DNA of 40,827 bases from positions 1 to 40,827 of the forward strand of contig CANQHV010000016.1 in the NCBI GenBank assembly GCA_947624005.1. The letters are read 5' to 3'. The stretch's first letter is position 1; each line of letters starts with the position of its first letter. Source of the stretch: an uncultured Clostridia bacterium. Its GTDB lineage: Bacteria > Bacillota > Clostridia > Christensenellales > Borkfalkiaceae. Below are positions 33,671 to 39,179 of the stretch, in pieces. The notes under the pieces were generated by a model. That model was given only the letters and a program-made list of their open reading frames with translations, was not told where the DNA came from and did not search any database. The translations under genes and the position numbers were made by a program.

Positions 33671-33699
33671 TTGACTTACGTGTTTTGCGGGTATACAAT
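33671..33699 (+). promoter_or_regulatory. Promoter of the partner-switching operon
   Basis: TTGACT at 33671-33676, 17-base spacer, TACAAT at 33694-33699: a housekeeping-type promoter. I see no clear SigB-like or SigF-like promoter in addition, so autoregulation by the encoded sigma factor is not evident. Confidence 0.65.
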
Positions 33700-33759
33700 A
33701 TTGATTGCGGGCGTTTTCCGTCAATAAAAAGTGTTTATAAATCATACAGAGGTAATTTT

Positions 33760-34068
33760 ATGCAACAGGTAAAACTGATTTCAACCGAAAACAATCTTTG
33801 CTTTTCGCTTTCGGGCGAAATCGATTCGGCGACCAGCGAAGATTTTTACGCGCAGGTATACGCCGCGTACTGCAACGACAAAAAGGACGTCGTTTTCGAC
33901 TGCGCGAATCTGACTTTTATCGACAGCACAACTCTCGGCACTTTCGTCAAGCTCTTCAAGCAGATAAAGGGCGACGGAAAAAGAATGGTACTGAAAAAGC
34001 TTCAACCGCGCATACTCAAACTCTTCGAGATATGCGCCCTCGACACTATAATGGAGATAGAGAGATGA
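33760..34068 (+). CDS. STAS-domain anti-sigma factor antagonist (SpoIIAA/RsbV type)
   Basis: A 102-residue STAS protein. In this family the unphosphorylated form captures the anti-sigma kinase and frees the sigma factor. The phosphorylation loop reads LTFIDSTTLGTFVKLF. The usual form is MDSSGLG, so the acceptor position is Thr57 in place of the second Ser, and the following Gly is Thr58. The start follows AGAGGT; the frame is open further upstream but lacks a site. The stop overlaps the next gene by ATGA. Confidence 0.87.
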   Translation: MQQVKLISTENNLCFSLSGEIDSATSEDFYAQVYAAYCNDKKDVVFDCANLTFIDSTTLGTFVKLFKQIKGDGKRMVLKKLQPRILKLFEICALDTIMEIER

Positions 34069-34412
34069 AGGAATTCAAAGTTTCGTTCCGCCTTGCCGAC
34101 AGCGAATATTTAACGGCTTTGCGGCTTGTGGCGGGGGCGGTATGTTCGGCTTCCGACCGCGATTTGGACGTGCTTGAAGATTTCAAGGTCTGCGTGACGG
34201 AATGCGCCAATATCCTTAAAAACTGCGGTTTCGAAAGGGGCGTGTTTTCGTTTGAGCGCGACGGCGGCGTAATTTTACGCGCCACGGGCGAGGGCGGCGC
34301 CGCGCACGAGGGCGACAACGAACTGTCGCTTGCGCTTATCTCTGCGCTGGTCGAAAATTGCGATATAGTAAGAGTAAAAGGAATAATAAACGGAATAACG
34401 CTTAAAATATAA
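34065..34412 (+). CDS. Degenerate RsbW/SpoIIAB-like protein
   Basis: Position, size (115 residues) and pattern place it where the anti-sigma kinase SpoIIAB/RsbW sits. FKVCVTECANILKNCGF aligns with the N-box helix, normally SEAxTNAxxH. The Glu (residue 46) is present, but the Asn that should be four residues later is Ile (Asn is at +3). The His is absent, and I see no G1 or G2 glycine box. ATP binding or kinase activity is therefore doubtful; a pseudokinase that still binds sigma or STAS partner is the likely reading. It overlaps both neighbours (ATGA at the start, TAATG at the end). Confidence 0.65.
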   Translation: MKEFKVSFRLADSEYLTALRLVAGAVCSASDRDLDVLEDFKVCVTECANILKNCGFERGVFSFERDGGVILRATGEGGAAHEGDNELSLALISALVENCDIVRVKGIINGITLKI

Positions 34413-35140
34413 TGGACGAGCAAGAGGCGTACGAGCTGTTCAGACAATACCGCGCGACGCGCGATATAGGGATAAGGAACAGGCTTGTCGAAAACTACAT
34501 AGACGTAGCGCGCATACTCGCCAAAAAATTTGCGGGCAGAGGGGTCGAGTACGACGACTTGTTACAGGTCGCGTCCGAGGCTCTTATTTCGGGCGTCGAA
34601 AAATTCGACCCCGACCTCGGCAATAAGTTCACTACATACATAACTCCCACGATAACGGGGGTTATAAAAAACTATTTCCGCGACTATTCGCACTCCATAC
34701 GTATTCCCCGCCGTCTGTATGCACTTGCGGCGCGAATAAAAGAGCAGTCGCAGAAATTTTATCAGGCGCACGGTTGCCAGCCCACCGTAAAACAGCTTGC
34801 GGCGGAACTTGAAACGGACGAAGAATCTGTAATCGAGGCGCTCGAATGTAAGCCGCCCCAAAGTCTGGACGCGACCCTTACGACGGAGGAGGGCGAAGAG
34901 CCGAAAGTGGACGTAGTTTCGGACGGACTGTCGGACTTCGACAGGTTTGAGGATTCCGAGGCGCTTAAAGCGGGGCTTAAAGACCTTGACGACGGCGAGC
35001 GCAAAATTATAGCTTTGAGGTTTTTGCAGGGCAAGTCGCAGTCGGAAACGGGCAAAATTCTGGGTGTAAGCCAGATGTTCGTTTCGCGCGCGGAGCGCAA
35101 AATCCTGCAAAAATTAAAGGAACGTATCGAAAATGATTAG
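34412..35140 (+). CDS. RNA polymerase sigma factor of the SigB/SigF/SigG group
   Basis: A 242-residue group 3 sigma-70 factor. Region 2 is clear (LVENYIDVARILAKKF, YDDLLQVASEALISGVEKFDP, FTTYITPTITGVIKNYFRD). Region 3 begins with IRIPRRLY and PTVKQLAAELE. Region 4 has LDDGERKIIALRFLQGKSQSETGKILGVSQMFVSRAE. An acidic stretch joins regions 3 and 4. Being enclosed by a STAS protein and two RsbW-like proteins, it is controlled by partner switching. Whether the regulon is sporulation, general stress or cell surface cannot be told from this DNA. Confidence 0.9.
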   Translation: MDEQEAYELFRQYRATRDIGIRNRLVENYIDVARILAKKFAGRGVEYDDLLQVASEALISGVEKFDPDLGNKFTTYITPTITGVIKNYFRDYSHSIRIPRRLYALAARIKEQSQKFYQAHGCQPTVKQLAAELETDEESVIEALECKPPQSLDATLTTEEGEEPKVDVVSDGLSDFDRFEDSEALKAGLKDLDDGERKIIALRFLQGKSQSETGKILGVSQMFVSRAERKILQKLKERIEND

Positions 35141-35504
35141 TTTCCGCGTAGACAATTTAAAGCGTATGAGCGCGGAGCTTGCGGCGTTTGCCGAATATCT
35201 GAAAGATAACAGCGTAAGCGACGACGACGTGTTTTTCAGTCGGCTGATTTCGTGCGAGCTTATAACCAACGTCATACGCCACAGTGGCGAAAGCGCGCAG
35301 TTTTCGGCGGAAATTCTCGGCGACGGCATAAGTATTTCGGTCACCGCGCCGAGTTTTGAAAACCTGCCGCTCGACGCCCCCGCGCCCGACGTCTTTGCCG
35401 AAAGCGGGAGGGGGCTTTATATAGTCCGCTCGATTATTTCGGGCGATATCGAACGCGGCAACCACGGCGAAGTAAAGGTTTTTCTTTCGTTCCATAACAA
35501 GTAA
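35133..35504 (+). CDS. RsbW/SpoIIAB-type anti-sigma ATPase
   Basis: A 123-residue GHKL-fold protein. The N-box is intact: SCELITNVIRHS, with Glu42 and Asn46 at the correct distance and His50. The G2-like glycine loop is FAESGRGLYIVRSI near 88-101. The G1 region (LGDGISISV) is less canonical. It overlaps the sigma gene by eight bases, unlike spoIIAB and rsbW, which usually precede their sigma gene. It is thus the active-looking kinase in an operon that also has a degenerate copy in the usual place. Confidence 0.82.
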   Translation: MISFRVDNLKRMSAELAAFAEYLKDNSVSDDDVFFSRLISCELITNVIRHSGESAQFSAEILGDGISISVTAPSFENLPLDAPAPDVFAESGRGLYIVRSIISGDIERGNHGEVKVFLSFHNK

Positions 35505-35526
35505 AAAGCGGCGGTTTCGCCGCTTT
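35505..35526 (+). terminator. Terminator of the sigma operon
   Basis: A 9-bp stem AAAGCGGCG (35505-35513) with 35518-35526, four-base loop, then AAATTTT. It begins one base after the last stop codon. Confidence 0.75.
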
Positions 35527-35536
35527 AAATTTTCGG

Positions 35537-35586: not shown

Positions 35587-35646
35587 ACGTTTGATGGGAA
35601 ATCGGCAGGACAAGAACGGAAGCCGAAAAGATACAACGTCAAACGT
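35587..35646. repeat. Structured 60-bp element, copy B
   Basis: Arms ACGTTTGA (35587-35594) and TCAAACGT (35639-35646) pair perfectly. The interior and right flank match copy A at 14567-14627, including AAAAGATACA. The right arm contains the stop codon of the membrane protein gene. Confidence 0.6.
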
Positions 35647-37168
35647 TAGGTTTGTTGTCGGCTTGGAAGAACTTATCCATAAGCCCGTCGGAAACAAGGT
35701 CGTGTAACCTTCCGAAATAAATGAATACGCTCGAGAAAAACTTTTTGTTGTCGCCGCCGACGCGGTACGAAGGTATGCCTGCAATCGTGCCCTTTTTCTT
35801 TTCGAGGAACACCTGCGCAAATTCGATTTTTTCCTCGTTCGAAAGCGTATTGATAAAGTCGTCGGTAGGTCCGTCGTAAATAGGCTTAACCGTATAAACC
35901 ATACCCTCTTGCGACGGTGCGGGCGCGGGTTGAGGCTCGGATACGGATTGAGCCGTCGCGGGCTGCGCCTGCGGTTGAGCCGCCGTCGCCGCCGCGGGAG
36001 TCGAAACGTTTACGATAACGGGCGGAGCGGGGTTGTTCGCCACGAACCGTTTTTCGTCGGAGCGGTAAAGGTTTGCCGTGCGTTCGAGTTCCGCCGCGCT
36101 TGCGGGCTTTGCGGAGTCGGGCTTTGCGCGCTTTTTCCTGCTTGCCTCGCGAATGTAGCGCGCGACGTATAATACAAATTGGATAAAGGCTATAATCAGT
36201 ATGATAAACGCGAACAGCCCGTAAGACGCGCCGTCTTTTTCAAGGAGCAAGGTAAAGATAAGCGCAAGCGCAATGAATACCATTTCCAGAAGATAGCGCC
36301 AGATTCCGAACATAAGCCTGCCGCTCTTCGTCTTGTGCGTAAGCGCGCCCAGCTCGACCAGAAGGTTGAACACGACGAACGCGCACGCTATTGCGCCGAA
36401 GATAACAAGCAAGAAATTGTATACGTCTATATCGAGAGCGAATTTGAGAAGGTCGCTGCCGAATACGAAGTATAACAGCGTAAGTCCGTCAACACCGTAA
36501 AACGCGGAGGGCGTGGCTTTCAGCTTTGCCGAAAAGTCCGCGAGTTTCGAGGCGGACTTCGAAAAAATTCCGCTTATGGGGAACAGCATAAACACTGCGA
36601 CCGCCGCAAGGACGAACAGAATAAGCCGCATTGCCGCGCCGTTGCCGTTTTTATTGTAGATAAAAGATTGTAAAATCAGCGCGATAAGAGTTCCGCCGAG
36701 CGCAATGAATACCGCGTAGTTAAGCGAAACGGCGCCGTAGCGGGTCATAACAAGCAAGGTGTAAAGTATAAGCACGACAGCCGAAATTATTTCGACGGTA
36801 TACGCGATTTTAAGGCAGGTTGCGCTTTGTTTTTTGCTTACGCACGCGGGTATCAAAAGGATAAGCGCAATCAAAGTCATCGCGGCGTACAAAATCACCA
36901 TCCACGCGGCGAGGTCGATTTCGGGCGTACCCGTAATACCGAAAAAGAGGAAGGGAACGGACGTCGAAAAAGCCGCGCCGTCGGCAAGAAGAGGCGTTTT
37001 AAGAGCAAGCGCTTTTGTGACGACGTCGGGAAGCTGCATAGCGAGCATACCGTCGACGCCCTTTACGCCGAGAGGCACGAAAAAGCCTACGAGCAAACAG
37101 ACCAGCGCTACGGCGTATGTAATAAGCGCCGCAAATTTGGAACGTTCTTTCTTGTTTTCGTTTGCCAT
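35639..37168 (-). CDS. Polytopic membrane protein with cytosolic C-terminal domain, unknown function
   Basis: A 509-residue protein I cannot assign. About eight to nine hydrophobic segments fill residues 12-340. They are followed by a basic stretch (REASRKKRAKPDSAK), an Ala/Pro/Gln-rich linker of about 50 residues near 380-425, and a small folded C-terminal domain (about 440-509) containing SNEEKIEFAQVFLEKKKG and IPSYRVGGDNKKFFSSVFIYFGRLHDLVS. The first segments flank a loop of about 40 residues that may face outside. The ATG at 37168 follows GGAG. It has a perfect consensus promoter and a strong terminator, and is transcribed alone. Its last codons overlap structured element B. Confidence 0.75.
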   Translation of the reverse strand: MANENKKERSKFAALITYAVALVCLLVGFFVPLGVKGVDGMLAMQLPDVVTKALALKTPLLADGAAFSTSVPFLFFGITGTPEIDLAAWMVILYAAMTLIALILLIPACVSKKQSATCLKIAYTVEIISAVVLILYTLLVMTRYGAVSLNYAVFIALGGTLIALILQSFIYNKNGNGAAMRLILFVLAAVAVFMLFPISGIFSKSASKLADFSAKLKATPSAFYGVDGLTLLYFVFGSDLLKFALDIDVYNFLLVIFGAIACAFVVFNLLVELGALTHKTKSGRLMFGIWRYLLEMVFIALALIFTLLLEKDGASYGLFAFIILIIAFIQFVLYVARYIREASRKKRAKPDSAKPASAAELERTANLYRSDEKRFVANNPAPPVIVNVSTPAAATAAQPQAQPATAQSVSEPQPAPAPSQEGMVYTVKPIYDGPTDDFINTLSNEEKIEFAQVFLEKKKGTIAGIPSYRVGGDNKKFFSSVFIYFGRLHDLVSDGLMDKFFQADNKPNV

Positions 37169-37474: not shown

Positions 37475-37497
37475 ATAACCGATAAGAGGTGGTAAAA

Positions 37498-37914
37498 ATG
37501 GCAGGATACATAGGAAGAAGACCCAAAGGCAGACCGCGAAAAGACGGCGCAATTTCGAAATGGGTGGCATATATACCCCAACCAACGGAGTTTTCCGTAA
37601 ACGACTTACCTAAAAATCCGCTGCTTGACGAACTTGTTATGGTAATGCCGCAAATACACTATAAACGCATACTTTCCGACGTGGATTTGGTGTGCTTTGC
37701 AAAGGTGTTCGAGGACGAACAGCTTATTGCAACTGCGCTCTATTATATTTTCGGCGGAATGAAGGTAGCCGAAACTTCCAAAAATATATATATGCACAGA
37801 AATACGCTTATGTACAGGCTCGACAAAATAAAAGCGATAACGGGTCTGGATATCAGAAATTTCAATCAGGCGCTGACTTTTTTAATCATACACCGCCTGT
37901 ATCTTAAAAAATGA
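37498..37914 (+). CDS. Small regulator: AT-hook-like N-terminus plus PucR/CdaR-type HTH
   Basis: A 138-residue protein. Residues 5-15 (GRRPKGRPRKD) contain the GRP core of an AT-hook minor-groove binder. Residues about 80-136 (FGGMKVAETSKNIYMHRNT, LMYRLDKIKAITGLDIRN) match the C-terminal HTH_30 domain of PucR/CdaR regulators, which normally follows a long sensory region missing here. The middle (about 25-75) has no known domain. A DNA-binding regulator with two contact modes is likely. It overlaps the S41 protease gene (ATGATGA), so it may control or sense that protein. The ATG follows GAGGTGG. Confidence 0.75.
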   Translation: MAGYIGRRPKGRPRKDGAISKWVAYIPQPTEFSVNDLPKNPLLDELVMVMPQIHYKRILSDVDLVCFAKVFEDEQLIATALYYIFGGMKVAETSKNIYMHRNTLMYRLDKIKAITGLDIRNFNQALTFLIIHRLYLKK

Positions 37915-39179
37915 TGAAATTTTTCAAACGCACGTTGATGTTGTCCGCCGCGGCGTTTACGCTTGCGGCGGCAATTTTTTCGGGTTGCTTTCAACGCTAC
38001 CCGACTTTTTTCGAATGGGCTGTGGACGCGGTTGACGCGTACTACCTATACGACGCGGACCTTTCGGGTTTGGAAAACGGCGACATTGAGGGGCTTGTCG
38101 CCCGCCTCGACAGATATTCGCGCTATTACACCGCGGAGGAATACCGCGTTACCGAAAACGAAAGCGCGGGCAAAAACAACGGCGTCGGCATTTCGTCGTC
38201 TTACGTCGAGGGCAAGGGCGACCTTGTCGTTAAAGTTACGGGCAATTCCCCCGCTTTCCATGCAGGCATAAAAAAAGGCGAGTTCATTACGTCGGTCGTA
38301 AGCGGACAAAAAACTTTCGAAGTCAGTCGCGAAAGGAGCGCGGCAAGCGTTTTCGACGACCTTCCGAACGGCGAAAATTTTACGATTGTGACGGATAAGT
38401 CGTCATATACTTTGCAAAATACCGATTATTACGCGACGTATGCCTCGCTTTCGACTTCTAAAACGGGCTGGGCGTTCGGCGACGGCGCGCGCCTTGTCGA
38501 AACGGGCGCAGGAATGGAATTTCTACCCGAGGACTTTGCTTATATGTCGGTTACGCAATTTACGGGCAACGTCGCCGACGAGTTCGGACGGCTGTGCGAG
38601 ATTGTAAACTCGCTCGACGGATGCGACAGCCTTATAATAGATCTCCGCAACAACGGCGGCGGGTACGTTTCTGCGATGCAGAAAATGGCGGGTTGCTTCG
38701 CGGCGGGGACGGCTATGACGGCGCGCTATAAAAACGGCGTCGAAAATTTCGCTTGCGAAAAGATTGACGATAAGTACAGGCTGGACGGGGACATAACTCT
38801 GTACGTCCTCGCCAACTGCAATACGGCGAGCGCGTCCGAGGCGTTTATGGGCGCGCTTATATCTTACGGCAGGCTCGACTATAACAATATCTACCTTTCC
38901 GACTTTTCAGAAGAATATCTTGCGGCTTCGGGCAACGATTCGAAAAATTGCCGCACTTACGGCAAGGGCATTATGCAGACCACGTATTATTATAAGCCCA
39001 CGGGCGAGGCGTTGAAACTCACCACCGCCCGCATATATTGGCCCGACGGCTCGACCTCTATACACGACAGGGGAATTACCGCGGACGACGGTTGCAAAAC
39101 GGTGCCCGCCGAGTGGAACGTAACCTATTCGGACGACGAACTTAAAACCGCAGTTTTGATGATGTCGGGGCAAAAGTGA
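37911..39179 (+). CDS. S41 (CtpA-like) serine protease lipoprotein
   Basis: A 422-residue exported protease. The N-terminal signal ends in the lipobox IFSGC (Cys near residue 26), so it is lipid-anchored outside. A PDZ-like domain (about 85-170; SPAFHAGIKKGEFIT) is followed by the S41 core: DLRNNGGGYVSAMQKMAG, then NTASASEAFMGAL with the candidate catalytic Ser at 307/309, then YGKGIMQTTYYY with the candidate Lys near 352. It is cotranscribed and overlapping with the small regulator. Substrate unknown; family members process C-termini of envelope or signalling proteins. Confidence 0.88.
   Translation: MMKFFKRTLMLSAAAFTLAAAIFSGCFQRYPTFFEWAVDAVDAYYLYDADLSGLENGDIEGLVARLDRYSRYYTAEEYRVTENESAGKNNGVGISSSYVEGKGDLVVKVTGNSPAFHAGIKKGEFITSVVSGQKTFEVSRERSAASVFDDLPNGENFTIVTDKSSYTLQNTDYYATYASLSTSKTGWAFGDGARLVETGAGMEFLPEDFAYMSVTQFTGNVADEFGRLCEIVNSLDGCDSLIIDLRNNGGGYVSAMQKMAGCFAAGTAMTARYKNGVENFACEKIDDKYRLDGDITLYVLANCNTASASEAFMGALISYGRLDYNNIYLSDFSEEYLAASGNDSKNCRTYGKGIMQTTYYYKPTGEALKLTTARIYWPDGSTSIHDRGITADDGCKTVPAEWNVTYSDDELKTAVLMMSGQK

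Follow-up and report, generated by a model that had tools for sequence, protein, structure and literature searches.

The operon described here raises the question of what two RsbW-like proteins, encoded on either side of a single sigma gene, each contribute to a partner switch, and which genes the sigma factor serves. It lies on contig CANQHV010000016.1 of assembly GCA_947624005.1, from an uncultured Clostridia bacterium of the Borkfalkiaceae, and the whole stretch of 40,827 nt that was analysed is referred to as the window. The window's own genome is 77% complete, and many of the genomes compared with it are incomplete metagenome assemblies.

Layout and distribution of the operon

All four genes are on the forward strand. 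The first encodes a STAS anti-anti-sigma protein of 102 residues with the predicted acceptor Ser56 in the motif DSTT (33760..34068; identified by ORF, Pfam/NCBIfam and alignments). It is followed by a degenerate RsbW-like protein of 115 residues, termed HK1, which we propose to be an anti-sigma factor without ATP binding (34065..34412; ORF, Pfam and alignments), by a probable sigma factor of the SigB/F/G family with 242 residues (34412..35140; ORF, Pfam/NCBIfam and sigma tree), and by HK2, a second RsbW-like protein of 123 residues, which has an N-box and a G2 box, lacks G1 and is the proposed STAS kinase (35133..35504; ORF, Pfam and alignments). The overlaps of 4 nt (STAS/HK1), 1 nt (HK1/sigma) and 8 nt (sigma/HK2) agree with the preliminary description of four overlapping ORFs in this order; its further claim, that the products are made in a fixed ratio, does not follow from gene overlaps by themselves.

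Upstream of the operon, a sigma-A-like promoter, TTGACT-N17-TACAAT, can be read from the sequence at 33671..33699 (forward strand), and similar pairs were seen by eye, uncounted, in many operon upstream regions of the genus. A SigB/F-like promoter, GTTT-N16-GTTTATAAA, was found by pattern match at 33713..33741 on the same strand. Directly 3' of the HK2 gene, a hairpin recognised by eye, AAAGCGGCG-GTTT-CGCCGCTTT, followed by AAATTTT (35505..35533, forward strand), is a possible terminator. The surroundings comprise a citrate synthase gene in divergent orientation upstream of the operon, a 509-residue membrane-protein-like ORF with no Pfam match (window 35642-37168, reverse strand), and a PucR-type helix-turn-helix protein (window 37489-39179, forward strand), the gene of which overlaps an S41 peptidase gene.

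The operon is real and conserved. The four genes stand together in 58 of 59 related loci, some of which represent one genome drawn from two collections; 56 of the 58 have each of the three junctions within the range -8 to +3 nt. Related loci on named contigs (n = 29) belong to Candidatus Coproplasma in three cases, the rest being assigned to uncultured Clostridia, Eubacteriales or similar. HK2 was found in 32 of the 61 genomes searched, i.e., in 32 of 37 from the window's genus and in 0 of 24 from other families of the order. Of 396 genomes of the order searched with a profile of HK1, 61 matched, spread over 24 of 142 genera, and 40 loci sampled from such genomes show the arrangement STAS-HK1-sigma-HK2 in 30 cases, across eight families; the remaining ten comprise three without a visible HK2 (two of them at a contig edge), six with HK1-sigma alone and one with sigma only. 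A wider HK1 profile, run on 391 genomes of the class, matched in 303, the weak matches including ordinary SpoIIAB. The four-gene order, which the preliminary description had suggested looking for in relatives, was found across the genus and in many further clostridial families.

Two loci were excluded from the conservation counts, namely L034, where only the tail of STAS lies on the stretch, and L050, whose contig begins within the sigma gene. L034, from genome G025, is a diverged version of the operon, in which sigma is 47% identical and HK2 lies 334 nt behind sigma. In seven loci of families f4 and f23 (L119, L121-L123, L139, L140, L199), a degenerate HK1 is followed by sigma with no STAS or HK2 match nearby, so that antagonist and kinase must sit elsewhere or be lost.

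Residues kept and lost in STAS, HK1 and HK2

The STAS protein is recognised by PF01740 (E = 1e-17) and scores 69.1 bits with TIGR00377, above the cut-off of 53.45. Its motif D55-S56-T57-T58 aligns with the DS of SpoIIAA, the serine of which is the SpoIIAA acceptor. Ser56 is kept in 44 of 44 genus rows; D22, S56, K87 and I91 are each conserved in 43-44 of these rows, and R84 in only 29. The preliminary description had named Thr-Thr as the acceptor, a candidate ruled out by the alignment to SpoIIAA together with RsbV, which RsbW phosphorylates at Ser56 according to excerpts of PMC7340262. By alignment, the acceptor is an ordinary serine, Ser56, and the oddity lies at position 58, where the genus rows have Thr (30), Met (8), Ile (5) or Ala (1) and the outgroups mostly Gly.

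HK1 matches HATPase_c_2 weakly (16.7 bits, E = 0.008), below the gathering score of 27.4 bits. As first described, it has no proper N-box and no glycine boxes: the position of the N-box Asn is occupied by Ile (43) or Val (1) in the 44 genus rows, and both glycine boxes are absent. When aligned to the genome's own SpoIIAB, all 13 HK1 rows retain the Arg and the Glu but neither the N-box Asn nor the G1 Asp, and the N, G1 and G2 motifs are lost throughout these rows bar one stray Gly, whereas three-gene RsbW rows aligned to the same SpoIIAB keep Arg, Glu and all ATP motif residues (3/3). Five of the 115 HK1 columns are at least 90% identical over 37 rows (R20, E38, D39, K41, E46), with R20, D39, K41 and E46 present in 37, 36, 34 and 37 of them, respectively. 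Counted from the shared Glu, four of these five columns are the positions of RsbW Arg23, Asp42, Lys44 and Glu49 (hypergeometric 3.6e-6), residues that contact RsbV according to excerpts of PMC7340262. T45, which takes the place of RsbW Ser48, is nearly invariant in the genus (43 of 44 rows) and much less common in the wider alignment (13 of 37). At the level of alignment, HK1 has lost the ATP-binding motifs and retained the residues that RsbW uses to hold its STAS partner.

HK2 also scores weakly with HATPase_c_2 (25.8 bits, E = 1e-5; gathering score 27.4 bits). All 31 rows compared have E42, N46, G92, R93 and G94, and alignment to the genome's own SpoIIAB shows the Glu, the Asn and both G2 glycines kept in 13 of 13 rows and the Arg missing in 12 of 13. 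The preliminary description had presented HK2 as the kinase with an intact N-box; E42 and N46 are indeed present, but the loss of G1 was overlooked there, and HK2 is hence partly degenerate. In the 44 genus rows the position of the G1 Asp is Ala (23), Ser (20) or Gly (1), and Asp is absent from all 44. An intact kinase is ruled out by this absence. The G1 Asp binds adenine in GHKL proteins, and its loss makes kinase activity of HK2 in the window's family doubtful.

In a wider set of 63 loci, G1 is present in 49 by a loosened pattern, under which L175 and L184 were scored present and L113 was skipped. The presence of G1 is coupled to that of STAS Gly58: both occur in 49 loci and neither in 13, Gly58 without G1 is seen once, and G1 without Gly58 is not seen in any of the 63. 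The 13 loci lacking both all come from families f1 and f29, so perhaps few events are represented.

Where HK2 stands behind sigma, 0 of 62 HK1 proteins have all three ATP motifs, although single-motif matches in this count are whole-ORF pattern matches that may arise by chance and no HK1 was assigned by the position filter in five loci (L113, L122, L124, L135, L140). Among 28 loci without HK2, for which at least 500 nt downstream were required and five shorter loci were set aside, the protein in the place of HK1 is intact in 15 (ten three-gene RsbW-type, five spoIIA-type) and degenerate in 13, two of which (L162, L190) may have a missed HK2 because close relatives carry it. The sample is biased, its loci having been chosen as HK1-profile hits and being mutually related. 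In a sigma tree of 96 rows, in which L113 was mislabelled as HK2-bearing, only six changes of the HK2 label are required, at least five of them on well-supported branches; the root is unsure, and both a path from bifunctional RsbW to the split form and the reverse are compatible with the tree.

Promoter motif, chaperone genes and the sigma factor

Upstream of the operon, 42 of 46 distinct genus sequences carry GTTT and, after a gap of N16 (39) or N17 (3), a GKTTATA box. The pattern GTTT-N16-GKTTATAWA occurs at 149 sites in 41 genus genomes versus 46 for the reversed pattern, whereas N17-18 gives 89 versus 92, and the enrichment is thus found at the 16-nt spacing only. In the window's own genome, the N15-17 pattern yields five sites, all N16 (before the operon, groES-groEL and htpG, and two within ORFs), versus four for the reversed control, so that this one genome alone proves nothing about the motif. 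The SigB/F-like promoter of the operon is probably used by its own sigma factor, i.e., autoregulation, as its position upstream of the operon and its resemblance to promoters of the SigB/F type suggest.

Of the 149 N16 sites, 112 were fetched; apart from a few others, the sites outside this set belong to the promoter of the operon itself. The gene behind each site was assigned by script, as the best ORF start within 260 nt, and named via short peptide patterns; Pfam was run on one example of each gene group, and the names NfeD and flotillin were given by eye. On this basis the genes behind the 112 sites are groES (27), htpG (18), a CobW-type GTPase (15), an NfeD-like membrane protein (8), DUF3737 (5), AraC-type (3), HAD (3), others (26) and none (7), with no gene or an unrecognised gene behind 29 sites. 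A groES or htpG site is present in 32 of the 38 genomes concerned. At one locus (L335), a flotillin-like gene lies next to the NfeD-like gene behind the motif, and in two others (L397 of genome G025, L405 of genome G022) the motif precedes genes judged by eye to encode hslV-like proteases, which would fit a proteostasis regulon. The operon sigma thus seems, from the genes behind its putative promoter motif, to direct heat-shock chaperone genes.

Genome G025, the sigma of which is the most diverged among the loci compared (47% identity), has seven look-alike sites of the form GTTT-N17-GTTTATATA. The spacing may have shifted to N17 in this genome, but the downstream genes are mixed (transposase-like, ribosomal S6-like and HslV-like, by eye) and two N16 sites occur as well. 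In three sister genera, the operon and groES sites, inspected by eye, are without one common spacing, which confines the chaperone claim to the genus.

The chaperone genes of the genus also differ from those of relatives in their known control elements. Searches for HrcA found it in none of the 23 genus genomes covered, but in 13 of 14 from other families, the lone miss being a genome that is 51% complete. All 17 genomes examined outside the family have a perfect CIRCE upstream of groES, whereas none of the 25 groES loci of the genus has a CIRCE (best match 6-9 mismatches of 18). Within the family, two genomes of genus g26 have a CIRCE with 0-1 mismatches before groES and HK1 was not found in them, whereas in three sister genera the eleven genomes tested each have an HK1 match and no CIRCE (7-8 mismatches of 18); in the genomes tested, the module and CIRCE are therefore mutually exclusive within the family. 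Two loci (L372, L377) combine a groES with CIRCE and a loose sigma-like match further upstream. These comparisons suggest that a partner-switch stress sigma likely took over chaperone control from HrcA/CIRCE.

The chaperone promoters could instead be ordinary sigma-A promoters that merely resemble the operon's, in which case the switch would be real and its targets different. Some groES sites do have TTGAC and a TATAAA-like box, and groES in the sister genera has a near-consensus sigma-A promoter; however, the only enriched spacing, 16 nt, leaves 15 nt between the hexamers TTGAC and TATAAA, which is short for sigma-A. Many htpG and groES sites read GTTTAA rather than GTTTGAC, and the operon's own promoters carry the motif without TTGAC, so we consider sigma-A control unlikely. 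A highly improbable reading is that the operon duplicates the spoIIA sporulation switch and that its sigma serves sporulation. The best model for the operon sigma is the SigB/F/G-family model TIGR02980 (E = 2e-61), with 207.8 bits against a cut-off of 234.35. The protein families are identical, SigF-type NCBIfam models rank among the best for the operon sigma, and the genome has a spoIIA operon, but the equivalog cut-offs for SpoIIAA (TIGR02886, 55.1 of 114.75 bits) and SigF (TIGR02885, 158.8 of 321.45 bits) are clearly missed. The canonical spoIIA-type operon sits apart (L001:753-2229, i.e., G000:C3, reverse strand), with a STAS protein carrying MDSTGIG, a SpoIIAB-like protein with all ATP motifs and a SigF-like sigma, and in the sigma tree six sigma factors from spoIIA-type loci form a separate group. 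With chaperones among the genes behind the promoter motif as well, a spoIIA duplicate is disfavoured by model scores, by the separate operon and by the tree.

A proposed divided partner switch and its counterparts

HK1 keeps the grip residues without the ATP motifs, HK2 mostly lacks the gripping Arg and keeps the N-box and G2, and none of the 62 HK1 proteins with HK2 behind sigma is fully intact, so that the anti-sigma and kinase roles look divided. We think it reasonably probable that the operon encodes a partner switch in which the jobs of RsbW/SpoIIAB are split over HK1 and HK2, and which governs its own operon and a set of chaperone genes instead of HrcA/CIRCE. The two-step switch of pseudokinase and kinase proposed at the outset is partly supported by the division of motifs and by the lack of any intact HK1 beside HK2, and is weakened by the missing G1 of HK2 itself.

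The gene order, the pattern of motif loss, the promoter motif with the genes behind it and the missing HrcA/CIRCE are observed in the sequences, and from them we infer binding, phosphorylation, dephosphorylation, use of the motif by the sigma factor, and a signal. HK1 would be a non-catalytic RsbW fold acting as an anti-sigma factor, holding sigma or, alternatively, unphosphorylated STAS. HK2 would phosphorylate STAS at Ser56, and phosphorylated STAS would be unable to bind HK1, leaving sigma held. Under stress, a PP2C phosphatase encoded elsewhere, for which P0004 is a candidate, would dephosphorylate STAS, which would then capture HK1 and release sigma. Free sigma would direct its own operon as well as groESL, htpG, the CobW-type GTPase and others, replacing the HrcA/CIRCE control of relatives. 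Against this model stand the degenerate HK1 without adjacent HK2 in 13 of 28 loci and the second sigma of the same family in the genome's spoIIA operon.

P0004 is proposed as the module's phosphatase by elimination: of the two PP2C genes in the genome, the other (L067) is SpoIIE-like, in a genome that also has a canonical spoIIA operon. It is a genus-specific PP2C of 354 residues (L068:1495-2559, reverse strand), with a weakly PAS-like N-terminal part, present in 35 of 37 genus genomes and with just distant matches in 5 of 24 others. All 12 aligned orthologues share C52, C60, C66, C158 and C302, the first three lying in the PAS-like N-terminus, and P0004 is possibly a redox or metal sensor. 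Its gene neighbours are, by eye, lgt-like and diacylglycerol kinase-like. Control of P0004 by the promoter motif was rejected, as no convincing site was found before the gene in the seven loci scanned (L210-L216). Downstream of the spoIIE-like gene lies a small IS200-like transposase ORF (L067:819-1286, by eye).

In a rather doubtful though possible alternative to phosphorylation by HK2, this protein is not a kinase in the window's family: with G1 and the STAS glycine lost together, switching would proceed without phosphorylation or via another nucleotide, and HK2 may be a heterodimer partner of HK1, not an enzyme. The coupled loss of Gly58 and G1 over the 63 loci favours this reading, as does M. 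smegmatis RsbW3, which works by pairing with RsbW1 according to excerpts of PMC7693655 and PMC10950880. However, the invariance of HK2 E42, N46 and G92-R93-G94 (31/31) and of STAS Ser56 (44/44) argues against a dead enzyme and a dead acceptor, which would not need these residues, and the 13 double-loss loci from two families may reflect few events.

Among known systems that resemble a switch with HK1 as anti-sigma factor and HK2 as STAS kinase, we know of no partner HK2 gene beside M. tuberculosis UsfX/RsbW and of no sigma factor in the SiaB pathway of Pseudomonas aeruginosa. UsfX/RsbW (8ih8, 8jzt) was compared by entry titles and alignments, SiaB (6kko) has 13% identity, and a term search of the SiaABC paper PMC7647112 returned nothing on the SiaB ATP site. 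The RsbV-RsbW-SigB and SpoIIAA-SpoIIAB-SigF systems of B. subtilis each use one bifunctional RsbW with all ATP motifs, whereas here two specialised proteins occur, the second behind sigma. The B. subtilis sigB operon also encodes the kinase RsbT. The preliminary statement that sigB operons have one kinase therefore fails for B. subtilis, the kinase role of RsbT being named in excerpts of PMC10950880.

The closest likeness is to the SigF switch of M. smegmatis, where, according to excerpts of PMC7693655 and PMC10950880, RsbW1 binds SigF without phosphorylating RsfB, and RsbW2 phosphorylates RsfB at Ser63 without binding SigF. Both systems combine a non-kinase anti-sigma factor and a separate STAS kinase, here by motif pattern, with a SigB/F-type sigma. 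The M. smegmatis SigF promoter, GTTT-N17-GGGTAA, resembles the motif described above, and the presence of one SigF-dependent and one SigF-independent promoter at rsbW-sigF is a further likeness (PMC7693655, excerpts). In contrast, M. smegmatis rsbW2 lies beside rsfB, away from sigF, whereas the four genes here form one overlapping operon, and RsbW2 has N, G1 and G2, whereas HK2 of the window's family lacks G1 (PMC7693655, excerpts).

The split switch as such is thus already known from M. smegmatis, the sole close experimental case in the open-access literature searched, and the single-operon form differs from it, being a compact version of the split anti-sigma/kinase switch that is widespread among clostridia. 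As a comparative rule in the loci examined, a second RsbW-like gene behind sigma goes with a first without full ATP motifs (62/62). The residues that make the model testable are HK1 R20, D39, K41 and E46, HK2 N46 and the lost G1, and STAS S56 and T58. The most surprising part, and the easiest to test, is the link to chaperone genes, which suggests an unexpected regulatory replacement at groESL, i.e., of HrcA/CIRCE by a partner-switch sigma, in an uncultured gut lineage. More tentatively, the lineage that made this replacement may also have lost the kinase G1 and the STAS Gly, with HK2 using another nucleotide or acting non-enzymatically and sensing something other than ATP/ADP. If this is true and HK2 uses a different nucleotide, chaperone control would answer to that nucleotide.
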